From NCBI GenBank assembly GCA_016793885.1, contig JAEUHE010000203.1:1-64000 (forward strand): a stretch of 64,000 bases of DNA. Direction: 5' to 3'. The notes beneath the pieces are model-generated. The model was not told the origin of the DNA. It did not search any database and was given only the letters and a program-made list of their open reading frames with translations. The DNA is from Verrucomicrobiales bacterium. Its GTDB lineage: Bacteria; Verrucomicrobiota; Verrucomicrobiia; Limisphaerales; UBA11320. The position numbers and the translations under genes are program-made. Positions 56,398-61,103 of this stretch are shown piece by piece (within the stretch, counting starts at the first letter, position 1; each line of letters begins with the position of its first letter).

Positions 56398-57381
56398 TCA
56401 GAACAATTCACGAATCTCGGCCGAGCCGCCCCCTGAAGTGGTGTCCCGGCGTTCCTCCGGCTCGGGATCGGAGACCGGGCCTCGGAGGGTCTCGATCTCC
56501 TTCTGATACTGGACGCAGCGCTCCTCGAGCAGCACCGCCAAGTCTTTCACGCGCTCCAACTCCGTTTCCAGTTGCTTGGCGGCAGCCACACGCTCATCCG
56601 CCTGGCTCAACTCGGCCGCCATCTGGGTGAGCTTCGCCTGAAGCCCGGAGCGGGCCTGACTCCACTCCTCGCTCTGCTGACTCACCATGGCGGCTTGTTG
56701 TCGGAGCGCCACCAGCTCACCCTCGAGTTGGTTGTTTCGACTCTGCAGCTCACCTCGCGACTTGCTGAGCGCATCTTTGTCCGCGACGGCCGCGGCAGCC
56801 TGCTGGCGCAACACGACCGCGGTCTGCTCAGCGGCTTGCAGCTTGGTCTGAGCTTCCGCGGCCGCCTTCTCCAAGGCCTGACGATCCTTCTGCACGGAAG
56901 AGGACTCGAGCCGCAGGCGTTTCAAGTCGGCCTCGGCCATCACGAGGGCTCCCTCCAGCTCCACCCTCCGACCCACCAGCGCCTCGTTCTCAGCGATCAG
57001 CTCGGCCGTGCGCTTCTCCGACGCGGAGTTAACCTCCTGAAGCGATGCTAGCTGACCCTGCAGCTCGGACCGGAGGGATTCCCAGCTCGCGCGCTCTTGC
57101 TCCGCAGCTGAGAGAGCCTCGAGAGATCGCGCCACTTCGGCCTTGGCTGTAGCAGCAGCAGCTTGCAGCTCATCGCGTGTTCGATTGAGCTCATCGCGCT
57201 CCCGGGTCAACCTTTGCGTCCGCTCTCGCTGCTGCTGCAGCTCCGTCTGCAGGGAGGCGCACTGCGACTCGAACTTGCCCCACCACCACCATCCAGCCAC
57301 CAGGCCAATGGCTCCGGCCAGCACGGCCAGGGTCAAATGAAGCGTGAAACTGTGGGTCAAAAAATAGGCAATAGGCTCCAT
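56398..57381 (-). CDS. Membrane-anchored coiled-coil protein
   Basis: 327 aa. One N-terminal helix (FTLHLTLAVLAGAIGLVAGWWWWG) followed by a continuous heptad-rich coiled coil from about residue 38 to 300, rich in Glu, Gln, Ala and Leu (LQTELQQQRERTQRL, LEGALVMAEADLKRLRLE). No catalytic motif. It lies 5 bp downstream of the OmpA-like gene and upstream of the tricorn-like gene, so the three probably form one operon, perhaps spanning the inner membrane to the cell wall. Low-complexity composition precludes a family call. Confidence 0.75.
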   Translation of the reverse strand: MEPIAYFLTHSFTLHLTLAVLAGAIGLVAGWWWWGKFESQCASLQTELQQQRERTQRLTRERDELNRTRDELQAAAATAKAEVARSLEALSAAEQERASWESLRSELQGQLASLQEVNSASEKRTAELIAENEALVGRRVELEGALVMAEADLKRLRLESSSVQKDRQALEKAAAEAQTKLQAAEQTAVVLRQQAAAAVADKDALSKSRGELQSRNNQLEGELVALRQQAAMVSQQSEEWSQARSGLQAKLTQMAAELSQADERVAAAKQLETELERVKDLAVLLEERCVQYQKEIETLRGPVSDPEPEERRDTTSGGGSAEIRELF

Positions 57382-57386
57382 AACCG

Positions 57387-58481
57387 TTACGGGATCCGGG
57401 ATGCGTTGTCCTTCGCTGTCACTTCCACCCGGCGGCTTCGTCGGCGCGCGTCCGGGTTCTTGTTCTGTGCTGCACTGAGCTTCTCGATCACGGATCTAAG
57501 CTCGAGCTGCCCGCGGGGAAGCCCGCGAGCCACCATCAGGGCCGCCACCGCCTCCGCGCGTCCGAGGCTCAGCCGCTGGTTCACGGAAGCGGCTCCGGAG
57601 GAATCCGAGAAACCAGTGACCACAAATTTACCCTGGGGCGCCAACTGACGAATCGCGGCCACCACTTGGTCCACCTTGGCCGCCTCCTCCGGCTTGAGCA
57701 CAGTGGAACCGGAATCGAAGAAGATCGGAAAGCTGCGCAGGGCACGCCCCAGATCCAACCCCGGAATTCCTGCCCCAACCCAGGCCTGTCCACGCCCCCG
57801 TTGGTCAGCACCAGCCGCCAGCACGATGTTGTTCTCCACCACCGGATTCCCTGGTCCCGGCATGCTCCGCTGAGCCAACGAGTGCAACGCAAGCTTCTCG
57901 GTCTCCGTGCGCACCGTGCCGGACAACGCAAGTCGGTTGGGCTCCAATACCAATGCCCCTTGGCTAACGCTCGCAAAGAACGAACCCAGCAAGGAGGGCA
58001 AGCTGGCCTGGTCCAGATAGGCCGGATCGAGAACCGTCGGGTCCACCTGAATAGCCGTCACATCGAAAACCTGCCGGGGAGCGCAGGTGGCCAACAGGGC
58101 AGCGACCCGATCCCGCCAAAGATCCGAAGGCATCCAGCCGCTGACCCGGTATCCGCCAGCGCTCTGAGGATCCAGTCGAAGCACCGGCGAAACGCGAATC
58201 TGGTTCCAGCTCGTAAGCGCTCGCGCACCGGCCAAGGCATGGATCTTTTCCTGGGCTTCGAGCCGAAAACGCGGATGGGAAACGAACCCGCTCAGCCGGG
58301 CATCCAAGCCCTGGAAGGAGAGACTGACTTGGCTGAGCTCAGGATTCGAACGCAAAGCCCGAGTCCCTTCCGACATGAGGGACTGCTCAAACCGATGTTG
58401 GTAAATCTTGAGATGGGCGTACGAGAAGCAGGCCGACAACAGGATCAAGAGGACCAAGATGAATGCCGCCAACAGTTTCAC
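57387..58481 (-). CDS. OmpA-family peptidoglycan-binding protein
   Basis: 364 aa from a GTG at 58481 that opens a membrane helix VKLLAAFILVLLILLSACFS; a longer frame to 58601 would overlap sufS. A middle part (about 55-230) has BON-like repeats (LSFQGLDARLSGFVSHPRF, LSGTVRTETEKLALHSLAQ). The C-terminal OmpA domain (about 245-350) shows FPIFFDSGSTVLKPEEAAKVDQVV and GFSDSSGAASVNQRLSLGRAEAVAALMVARG, with RRVEV at the end. It would tether the membrane to peptidoglycan. First gene of the OmpA/coiled-coil/tricorn run. Confidence 0.87.
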   Translation of the reverse strand: MKLLAAFILVLLILLSACFSYAHLKIYQHRFEQSLMSEGTRALRSNPELSQVSLSFQGLDARLSGFVSHPRFRLEAQEKIHALAGARALTSWNQIRVSPVLRLDPQSAGGYRVSGWMPSDLWRDRVAALLATCAPRQVFDVTAIQVDPTVLDPAYLDQASLPSLLGSFFASVSQGALVLEPNRLALSGTVRTETEKLALHSLAQRSMPGPGNPVVENNIVLAAGADQRGRGQAWVGAGIPGLDLGRALRSFPIFFDSGSTVLKPEEAAKVDQVVAAIRQLAPQGKFVVTGFSDSSGAASVNQRLSLGRAEAVAALMVARGLPRGQLELRSVIEKLSAAQNKNPDARRRSRRVEVTAKDNASRIP

Positions 58482-58582
58482 GGAAGGGAAGCCTAGACAG
58501 TGACCCCCCTGGAGGTAAAGAAGTTGTATGAGGCATAAATGGACTCGCCCACCTGCCGCACGGACGGATAGAACAGTGTGCA

Positions 58583-59845
58583 GTGATCGATCCCCGTTCA
58601 ATCGAGGCTCCGACTACGCCACCCCGGTTTGATCCCGCGGTGCTGCGCCGGCAATTTCCCGCCCTGGACCAAACCGTCCACGGCCATCCCTTGGTGTACC
58701 TCGACAATGCCGCAACCACCCACAAGCCTCAGCAGGTAATTCGGACACTCACACGCTTCTACGAGCGGGACAACGCCAATGTGCACCGGGCGATTCACGA
58801 ACTGGCCGAACGATCCACCATCGCCTTCGAAGCCGCTCGCGCCCGGGTGGCCCGCTTCCTGAAAGCCAAAGAGCCAGCTGAGATTGTTTTTACCCGGGGA
58901 ACAACCGAGGCCATTAATCTGGTGGCCCAGTCCTGGGGACGTCGCCAACTGCGCGCCGGAGATCAGATCCTCCTAAGCCCTCTCGAGCACCATAGCAATC
59001 TGGTTCCCTGGCAGATGCTCTGCCGTCAGACGGGAGCCGAGCTGCGTTTCCTGCCCCTGGACCGCTCAGCGCAGGAAGTTCGCTGGGACCAGCTCGTGTC
59101 GCTGCTCACTCCGCAGGTCAAATTACTTGCGTTCACCCACCTCTCCAATGTGTTGGGAACGGTCAGCCCCGTCTCCGAAGTATGTGCCGTCGCGCGCGCG
59201 CGCGGTGTGGTGACGCTGGTAGATGCCGCCCAAAGCGCCGGGCACCTCCCCCTGGATGTGCAGGATCTGAATTGCGACTTCCTCGCCTTCTCCGGTCATA
59301 AAGTATACGGCCCCACGGGTATCGGCGTTCTCTACGGCCGCAAGGAGAGACTGCTCACCATGGATCCCTGGCAAGGCGGCGGAGAGATGATCGAAAATGT
59401 CTCCTGGTTGGATTCCACGTTTGCTCCCCCGCCCCAACGCTTCGAGGCGGGAACGCCCGCGATCGCGGAGGCGATCGGCCTCCACGCAGCCCTCGATTTC
59501 CTCGACCAGATCGGACGTCCGAGCCTGGAACGGCAGGAACGCGAGCTCACTCACCTCGCGTTGGAACAACTGGAGGCGCTTCCAGGACTTCGGGTGCTGG
59601 GCTCGCGGGAAAATCGCAGCGGGGTACTGTCGTTTACTCTCGAGGGAGTTCACGCCCACGACTTGGTGACATTCGCCAATGAACGGGGCATTGCCCTTCG
59701 CTCCGGACACCACTGCGCCCAGCCCCTGCTGTCCGAACTCGGCCTCAGTTCGGTAGCCCGGGCCAGCCTGGCTCTCTACAACACCCCGCAGGACATCGAC
59801 CGATTGGTGAGCGCCACTCGCGAGGCCCTCACGTTCTTCGCCTAA
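58583..59845 (+). CDS. sufS: Cysteine desulfurase SufS
   Basis: 420 aa from a GTG start; no ATG precedes the family N-terminus in frame. PLP enzyme with the fold-type I landmarks YLDNAATTHKPQQV, RGTTEAINLVA, LEHHSNLVPW, LVDAAQSAGH, the PLP-lysine in FSGHKVYGPTGIGVLYG and the persulfide cysteine in LRSGHHCAQPLL near the C-terminus. It removes sulphur from cysteine for Fe-S assembly and hands it to SufE. The SufE-TatD fusion gene follows after 10 bp, matching that partnership. No SufBCD is in the window. Confidence 0.95.
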   Translation: MIDPRSIEAPTTPPRFDPAVLRRQFPALDQTVHGHPLVYLDNAATTHKPQQVIRTLTRFYERDNANVHRAIHELAERSTIAFEAARARVARFLKAKEPAEIVFTRGTTEAINLVAQSWGRRQLRAGDQILLSPLEHHSNLVPWQMLCRQTGAELRFLPLDRSAQEVRWDQLVSLLTPQVKLLAFTHLSNVLGTVSPVSEVCAVARARGVVTLVDAAQSAGHLPLDVQDLNCDFLAFSGHKVYGPTGIGVLYGRKERLLTMDPWQGGGEMIENVSWLDSTFAPPPQRFEAGTPAIAEAIGLHAALDFLDQIGRPSLERQERELTHLALEQLEALPGLRVLGSRENRSGVLSFTLEGVHAHDLVTFANERGIALRSGHHCAQPLLSELGLSSVARASLALYNTPQDIDRLVSATREALTFFA

Positions 59846-59855
59846 CTCAACGGAT

Positions 59856-61103
59856 ATGGAGCTGGCAGACAAGCATCGACAGTGGCTGCAGGAGTTAAGG
59901 AGCCTGGGCGATTCGCAGGAGCGAATGTCGTACCTGGTCCGACGAGCCCGCCAGTCGAGCCCTTTCCCGGCCGCATTCAGGACCGACGCGCATCGGATTC
60001 CTGGATGTTTGTCGAAACTCTGGTTGGCCGCCGAGCTGCTTGAAGGGAAATGCCAATTTCAAACCGATTCAGACTCGGCCATCGTGAAAGGAGTGGCTTC
60101 CCTGCTCTGCGAATTTTTTAGCGGAGCCACCCCCGCTGAAATCCTGGCCTACGAGGGCGATGCGCTGGCGGAATCTGGCATCCAGGCGCATCTCAGCCCT
60201 AACCGCCGAAACGGCCTGGGGAAGCTCAGGGAACGCATCCGTGACTTCGCGCAACAATACCAGTCGGCCGAAACAATCACCCCCGCTCAGACTTCCCGCC
60301 TCCCCAAGCTGTACGACGCCCACAACCACCTCCAGGACGCCCGGCTCAACCTCAACGCCGAGGGTCTCATGCAAGCCGCGGCGGCAGCCGGGATCGAACG
60401 GATGGTGGTCAACGGTTCTTGCGAAGAGGATTGGCCGCACGTCCAGGATCTGGCCACCCGCTTTCCACGCATTCTTCCCAGCTTCGGCTACCATCCCTGG
60501 TACATCACGGAAAGAACTCCAGCCTGGAAAGAGTCCCTGCAGAAATTCCTCGAACTTCCCGGTGCTGGCATCGGGGAAGTGGGATTGGACCGATGGATTC
60601 CCGACCCCAACATGGAGGATCAGGAGGAGGTGTTCGTCTGGCAGCTGCGTCTGGCCGCCGAAAGAAATCTCCCCCTGACCATCCACTGCCTGAAGGCCTG
60701 GGGCCAGTTGGAAGCATGCCTGAGACGGGAAGCTCGCCCCGCGCGGGGCTTTCTCCTCCACTCTTTCGGCGGCCCTCCGGAGATGATTCCCTCGTTCGCC
60801 AGGCAGGGTGCCTACTTCTCCTTCCCGGGTTACTATCTGCACGCACGCAAAGCGAAGCAGCGGGAAACCTTCCGGCAAGTGCCGCTCGACCGACTGCTGG
60901 TCGAAACCGATGCTCCCGACCAATTGCCGCCCCCCGAGAGGTGTCCGTTCCCGCTGGTCGCACCAGACACCTTGAAACCGATCAACCATCCCGCCAATCT
61001 CGCCGCCATCTATCAAGGGCTGGCCGACTTCCTTGGCATCCCTCTAGATGCCCTGGCCCATCAAGTCGGCTCCAACTTTCACCGCCTGTTCGGAACAGCG
61101 TGA
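59856..61103 (+). CDS. Fusion of SufE-like sulphur acceptor and TatD-like hydrolase
   Basis: 415 aa. Residues 1-140 are SufE-like, with the acceptor cysteine C51 in HRIPGCLSKLWLAAEL and the tail GDALAESGIQAHLSPNRRNGLGKLRERI. From about 150 a TatD-type metal-dependent hydrolase begins: YDAHNHLQD (H156, H158), GEVGLDRWIP with the bridging Glu, IHCLKAWGQL, HSFGGPPEM and VETDAPDQLPP. SufE accepts persulfide from SufS, encoded 10 bp upstream; TatD enzymes hydrolyse DNA or other phosphodiesters. The two parts are in one frame with no internal stop and both keep their key residues, so the fusion looks real rather than a sequencing join. Confidence 0.88.
   Translation: MELADKHRQWLQELRSLGDSQERMSYLVRRARQSSPFPAAFRTDAHRIPGCLSKLWLAAELLEGKCQFQTDSDSAIVKGVASLLCEFFSGATPAEILAYEGDALAESGIQAHLSPNRRNGLGKLRERIRDFAQQYQSAETITPAQTSRLPKLYDAHNHLQDARLNLNAEGLMQAAAAAGIERMVVNGSCEEDWPHVQDLATRFPRILPSFGYHPWYITERTPAWKESLQKFLELPGAGIGEVGLDRWIPDPNMEDQEEVFVWQLRLAAERNLPLTIHCLKAWGQLEACLRREARPARGFLLHSFGGPPEMIPSFARQGAYFSFPGYYLHARKAKQRETFRQVPLDRLLVETDAPDQLPPPERCPFPLVAPDTLKPINHPANLAAIYQGLADFLGIPLDALAHQVGSNFHRLFGTA

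Follow-up and report, generated by a model that had tools for sequence, protein, structure and literature searches.

A sufE-tatD fusion gene downstream of sufS in a Verrucomicrobiales genome and its probable connection to TcdA-dependent tRNA modification

We analyzed a stretch of 64,000 nucleotides from a Verrucomicrobiales bacterium (contig JAEUHE010000203.1; called the window below) in which a SufE-like sulfur acceptor and a TatD-type metallohydrolase are encoded as a single protein, just downstream of a gene for a SufS-type cysteine desulfurase. Taken alone, the fusion is a modest finding. The part worth following is that its TatD half almost always co-occurs with TcdA, the enzyme that makes cyclic N6-threonylcarbamoyladenosine (ct6A) in tRNA, and because of this the gene probably serves tRNA modification rather than the repair of Fe-S clusters. 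It appears somewhat probable that the fused protein is the sulfur-acceptor arm of a tRNA-modification module like the CsdA-CsdE-TcdA relay of Escherichia coli, with a TatD-family hydrolase added.

As a preliminary description of the sequence had stated, the two domains share one open frame (Table 1), and both score far above the Pfam cutoffs. Residues 12 to 129 of the 415 amino acids (aa) match SufE (PF02657; 115 bits, cutoff 27), and residues 154 to 413 match TatD_DNase (PF01026; 195 bits, cutoff 27). The catalytic cysteine and the metal-binding residues are intact, again as described: C51 of the SufE part is invariant in 43 of 43 relatives, and in the TatD part the same holds, in 77 of 77, for H156, H158, E241, H277, H302, and D352. 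By domain match and by these residues, the protein belongs to both families. A second cysteine of the SufE part, C85 (window positions 60108 to 60110), is nearly invariant (39 of 43 TatD-linked SufE proteins). AlphaFold2 predicted two confident domains (mean predicted local distance difference test [pLDDT] score, 93.7; predicted template modeling [pTM] score, 0.73) with a weaker linker of low pLDDT at about residues 131 to 150, and the predicted structure matched solved TatD and SufE/CsdE structures in Foldseek searches. The SufE domain did not reach the SufE or CsdE equivalog cutoffs (54.9 versus 160 and 53.3 versus 136.4 for PRK09296 and TIGR03391); its nearest solved structures by sequence were E. 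coli CsdE (44.7 bits) and then SufE (39.5 bits). The TatD part is about 18 to 28% identical to solved TatD proteins. The genome also has a second, ordinary TatD paralog, which matches the fused TatD at only 29% identity, and the fused TatD is a clade distinct from it.

The association of this TatD clade with TcdA was measured in 167 genomes of the order that were at least 90% complete, with a presence threshold of E = 1e-25 for both proteins. For TcdA, the threshold falls in a gap between 1e-20 and 1e-32; the TatD gap is narrower, from 1e-24 to 1e-26, and the sole TatD match at 1e-26 is a fragment with 63% identity. Both proteins were present in 120 genomes and both were missing from 40, with TcdA alone in 5 and TatD alone in 2. 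Presence thus agreed in 160 of the 167 genomes, versus a mean of 133 when the data were shuffled within families; none of 20,000 shuffles reached 160. Eight families hold both states, with TatD and TcdA present in some genomes and absent from others.

The genes are also neighbors, in 36 of 119 genomes of the order and in 26 of 68 genomes across the phylum. They stand tail to tail in 32 genomes of the order and 16 of the phylum (48) and on the same strand, in the order tatD-tcdA, in 4 and 10, respectively (14). Because the same neighbors occur in two different arrangements, selection is a better explanation than inherited order. In a survey of 77 nonredundant loci, 75 of which had enough flanking sequence, tcdA lay tail to tail downstream of tatD in 29 of the 75. 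In the cultured Chthoniobacter flavus (L048), where the genes are linked, the distance to tcdA is 0.7 kb. The TcdA name is secured by the NCBIfam model PRK15116, whose cutoff of 304 is passed in one relative (L034; 307.7 bits).

Several observations weigh against the Csd-like reading. The TcdA of the source genome (G000:C97) scores 275.7, below the cutoff of 304, even though this is still its best family, and beyond the order many TcdA matches are weak (E of about 1e-30 to 1e-40). Within its own genus, tcdA is apart from the fusion, at C97 in the source genome and 16 kb distant in a congener (G242). TatD and TcdA occur in many genomes in which SufE lies elsewhere or goes undetected, which makes SufE an optional partner. 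Finally, because adjacent genes can vanish together, the co-occurrence may partly reflect single deletions; several of the mixed families keep the adjacency.

The relay in E. coli gives the closest comparison. There, CsdA and CsdE are required in vivo for the ct6A made by TcdA; ct6A drops to 2% in a ΔcsdE strain and to 12% in a ΔcsdA strain, and CsdE contacts TcdA close to its catalytic cysteine (PMC4405576; PMC5646864). As in that relay, in which TcdA is also called CsdL, a SufE-like acceptor adjoins a cysteine desulfurase, and TcdA is encoded in the genome, with a score below the cutoff, and linked in relatives; the SufE domain is also slightly nearer to CsdE than to SufE. The present case differs in having a TatD hydrolase fused to the acceptor or encoded beside it and in that TcdA may be remote. 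The Csd/TcdA papers that we searched mention no TatD partner, and the open-access literature searched describes neither a SufE-TatD fusion nor a TatD-TcdA link. EboB of the ebo cluster is likewise a TatD-like metallohydrolase inside a biosynthetic gene cluster (PMC5133447), but it belongs to another pathway and another family and is a precedent only.

If the Csd-like reading is right, SufS would draw persulfide sulfur from cysteine and load it onto C51 of the SufE domain; from there, we infer, it would be handed to TcdA. In the tRNAs that decode ANN codons, TcdA would cyclize the t6A at A37, giving ct6A. The TatD domain would be a dedicated metal-dependent hydrolase of the ct6A pathway that acts on the same tRNAs; its exact reaction is a guess and would most likely be the opening or proofreading of the modified base or, failing that, the trimming of faulty tRNA. 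Fusing the adjacent sufE and tatD genes would hold both activities in one polypeptide. The amidohydrolase clan includes enzymes that open hydantoin rings. Ring opening or proofreading by TatD is possible because ct6A in tRNA is now regarded as a hydantoin (PMC13139853) and TatD proteins are members of this clan (PMC5133447); a nuclease acting on tRNA seems about as likely. We consider it rather doubtful, though worth stating, that the TatD paralog is an undescribed amidohydrolase-fold enzyme of ct6A metabolism, physically joined to the sulfur acceptor, whose role is to open, edit, or recycle the product of TcdA, a cyclic (hydantoin or oxazolone) base. If true, it might help to explain why a modification that is not thiolated depends on a sulfur relay in vivo. 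That sulfur requirement has been termed enigmatic (PMC4405576), and a TatD that agrees with TcdA in presence or absence in 160 of the 167 genomes and fuses to a sulfur acceptor is a concrete candidate partner.

The alternative closest to this mechanism keeps TatD in the TcdA pathway but makes it a 3′-5′ nuclease for tRNA or RNA that clears wrongly modified tRNAs, instead of a ring-opening enzyme. We regard this as a tentative possibility. A kinship of the D-aminoacyl-tRNA deacylase DTD3 with TatD was considered, but the papers found did not bear it out, and it carries no weight here. Among the named models and structures, the nearest are nucleases of the TatD type, and the substrate of TcdA is tRNA (PMC4405576). 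However, the clade scores below the cutoff of the TIGR00010 nuclease subfamily (146.3 versus 206) and has invariants of its own (W215, W224, R246-W247, and an NHPAN motif). It shares its fold and metal-site residues with the TatD, YcfH, and YjjV nucleases (PF01026) but, unlike them, is tied to TcdA.

It is also unlikely, in our estimate, that the fusion is neutral, with sufE and tatD sharing a transcription unit for historical reasons, a stop codon lost without functional meaning, and the two halves keeping separate, ordinary jobs. Most Verrucomicrobiota carry sufE and tatD as two genes that touch, and in some relatives they overlap, which would make the loss of a stop easy; the ancestral state is this neighboring pair, and the fusion is derived. 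Three congeners of the source genome (G000) were compared. In G243, a second species with a separate assembly, sufS is again followed by a sufE-tatD fusion (53% identity), whereas in G242 sufS, sufE, and tatD are three distinct genes, and in G244 sufE and tatD are unfused at a contig end. Two other genomes of the order (G512 and G343) also carry the fusion; no SufS was found adjoining it in either, and the G512 contig has little upstream sequence. On a tree of the TatD sequences, the fused state needs four label changes, and the starred branches force at least three origins. In the codon view, the stop of sufE and the start of tatD have both disappeared from their ancestral place in each fused gene, so a single-base error cannot explain the join. 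An assembly artifact, which the preliminary description had raised, is ruled out by the independent fusion in G243 and by the lost start codon. Its other caution, that a stop might have been lost only here while relatives keep two genes, holds for the relatives, most of which do have two genes, but not for the uniqueness, because four genomes are fused.

The linkers differ, as they might under neutrality: those of G000 and G243 share 15% identity over 13 aligned residues. In both domains of these two fusions, codon positions 1 and 2 differ less than position 3, a pattern as under purifying selection; the ratio of nonsynonymous to synonymous divergence (dN/dS), computable only for TatD and with dS nearly saturated, was about 0.15. 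The linker of the G512 fusion (L067) holds a short GC-rich insert resembling an inverted repeat, so that fusion may stem from a repeat insertion. Two relatives in the class (G182 and G170; L014 and L015) have about 0.6 kb between sufE and tatD and likewise between tatD and tcdA.

What argues against neutrality, besides the repeated fusions and the genome-by-genome match of TatD with TcdA, is that the sufE-tatD pair persists from family to family, with a median TatD identity of 52%, while few other neighbors recur. This TatD directly follows SufE in 45 of 67 SufE genes (from genomes with a listed TatD match, SufE and TatD matches being crossed), and SufE is upstream of TatD in 41 of the 75 loci. 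Simple collinearity of the genomes was tested as the cause of the conserved order; other recurring neighbor clusters, with SufE, TatD, TcdA, and the frames lying antisense to these excluded, were small, reaching about 7 of 57 loci by our own reading of the clusters, and the clearest of them fall within close relatives. Each of six fused or near relatives tested has one SufE, the TatD-linked copy.

A reading that follows the preliminary suggestion, in which the sulfur feeds Fe-S assembly while TatD repairs oxidative DNA or cluster damage, has on its side the SufS gene adjoining SufE and the family models that describe TatD-family proteins as exonucleases, but it is very unlikely, because SufB and SufD had no matches in G000, G242, G243, or G244 (the same search was positive in 14 of 14 control genomes), because the source genome has a set at G000:C236, apart from the fusion locus, in which NifU/IscU adjoins a NifS/IscS-like desulfurase and ApbC, and because the conserved context is TcdA and not suf genes. 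A NifU_N scaffold was found in all five genomes of the genus that were searched. The adjacent SufS and SufE resemble the SUF system (SufS-SufE-SufBCD), but the tested members of the genus are without its SufB/SufD scaffold, and a TatD partner is, as had been noted, outside the standard system. From the idea that cluster repair is coupled to nucleic acid processing, the nucleic acid link survives in the form of tRNA, because the conserved gene neighborhood indicates TcdA and the ct6A modification.

Table 1. Features of the sufE-tatD locus (positions in the window)
Feature	Position	Strand	Remarks
sufS-type cysteine desulfurase	58583..59845	+	Start GTG as listed; TIGR01979, 549 bits, cutoff 475
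sufE-tatD fusion gene	59856..61103	+	Single open frame, ATG 59856 to TGA 61103, 415 aa
SufE/CsdE-like domain	59889..60242	+	PF02657 match; C51, persulfide cysteine; family located here by profile search
Linker in place of ancestral sufE stop and tatD start	60243..60311	+	Codon view; without in-frame ATG/GTG/TTG
TatD-type metallohydrolase domain	60315..61094	+	PF01026; HxH H156/H158, E241, H277, H302, D352; Foldseek matches to TatD structures

The gap of 10 bp between the end of the SufS frame and the ATG of the fusion agrees with the preliminary description, and the SufS neighbor is common to G242 and G243. The desulfurase passes the SufS model and is below the cutoff of the CsdA model (438.4 versus 493.6). 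Among NCBIfam models, it scores highest with that for the family 2A encapsulin cargo desulfurase (594 bits, below that model's cutoff of 800), ahead of the SufS model. Upstream of sufS are a divergent gene whose C terminus looks OmpA-like by eye (57387 to 58601) and a coiled-coil-like gene (56398 to 57381); their order is kept in G242 (L164), where an HscB-like gene, with a score below the cutoff, comes after the pair. Elsewhere in the window, a ThiF/E1-like domain (1116 to 1586) lies inside an open frame of 581 aa. The source genome has 8 ThiF-family matches, versus 3 in each of three relatives in the genus.
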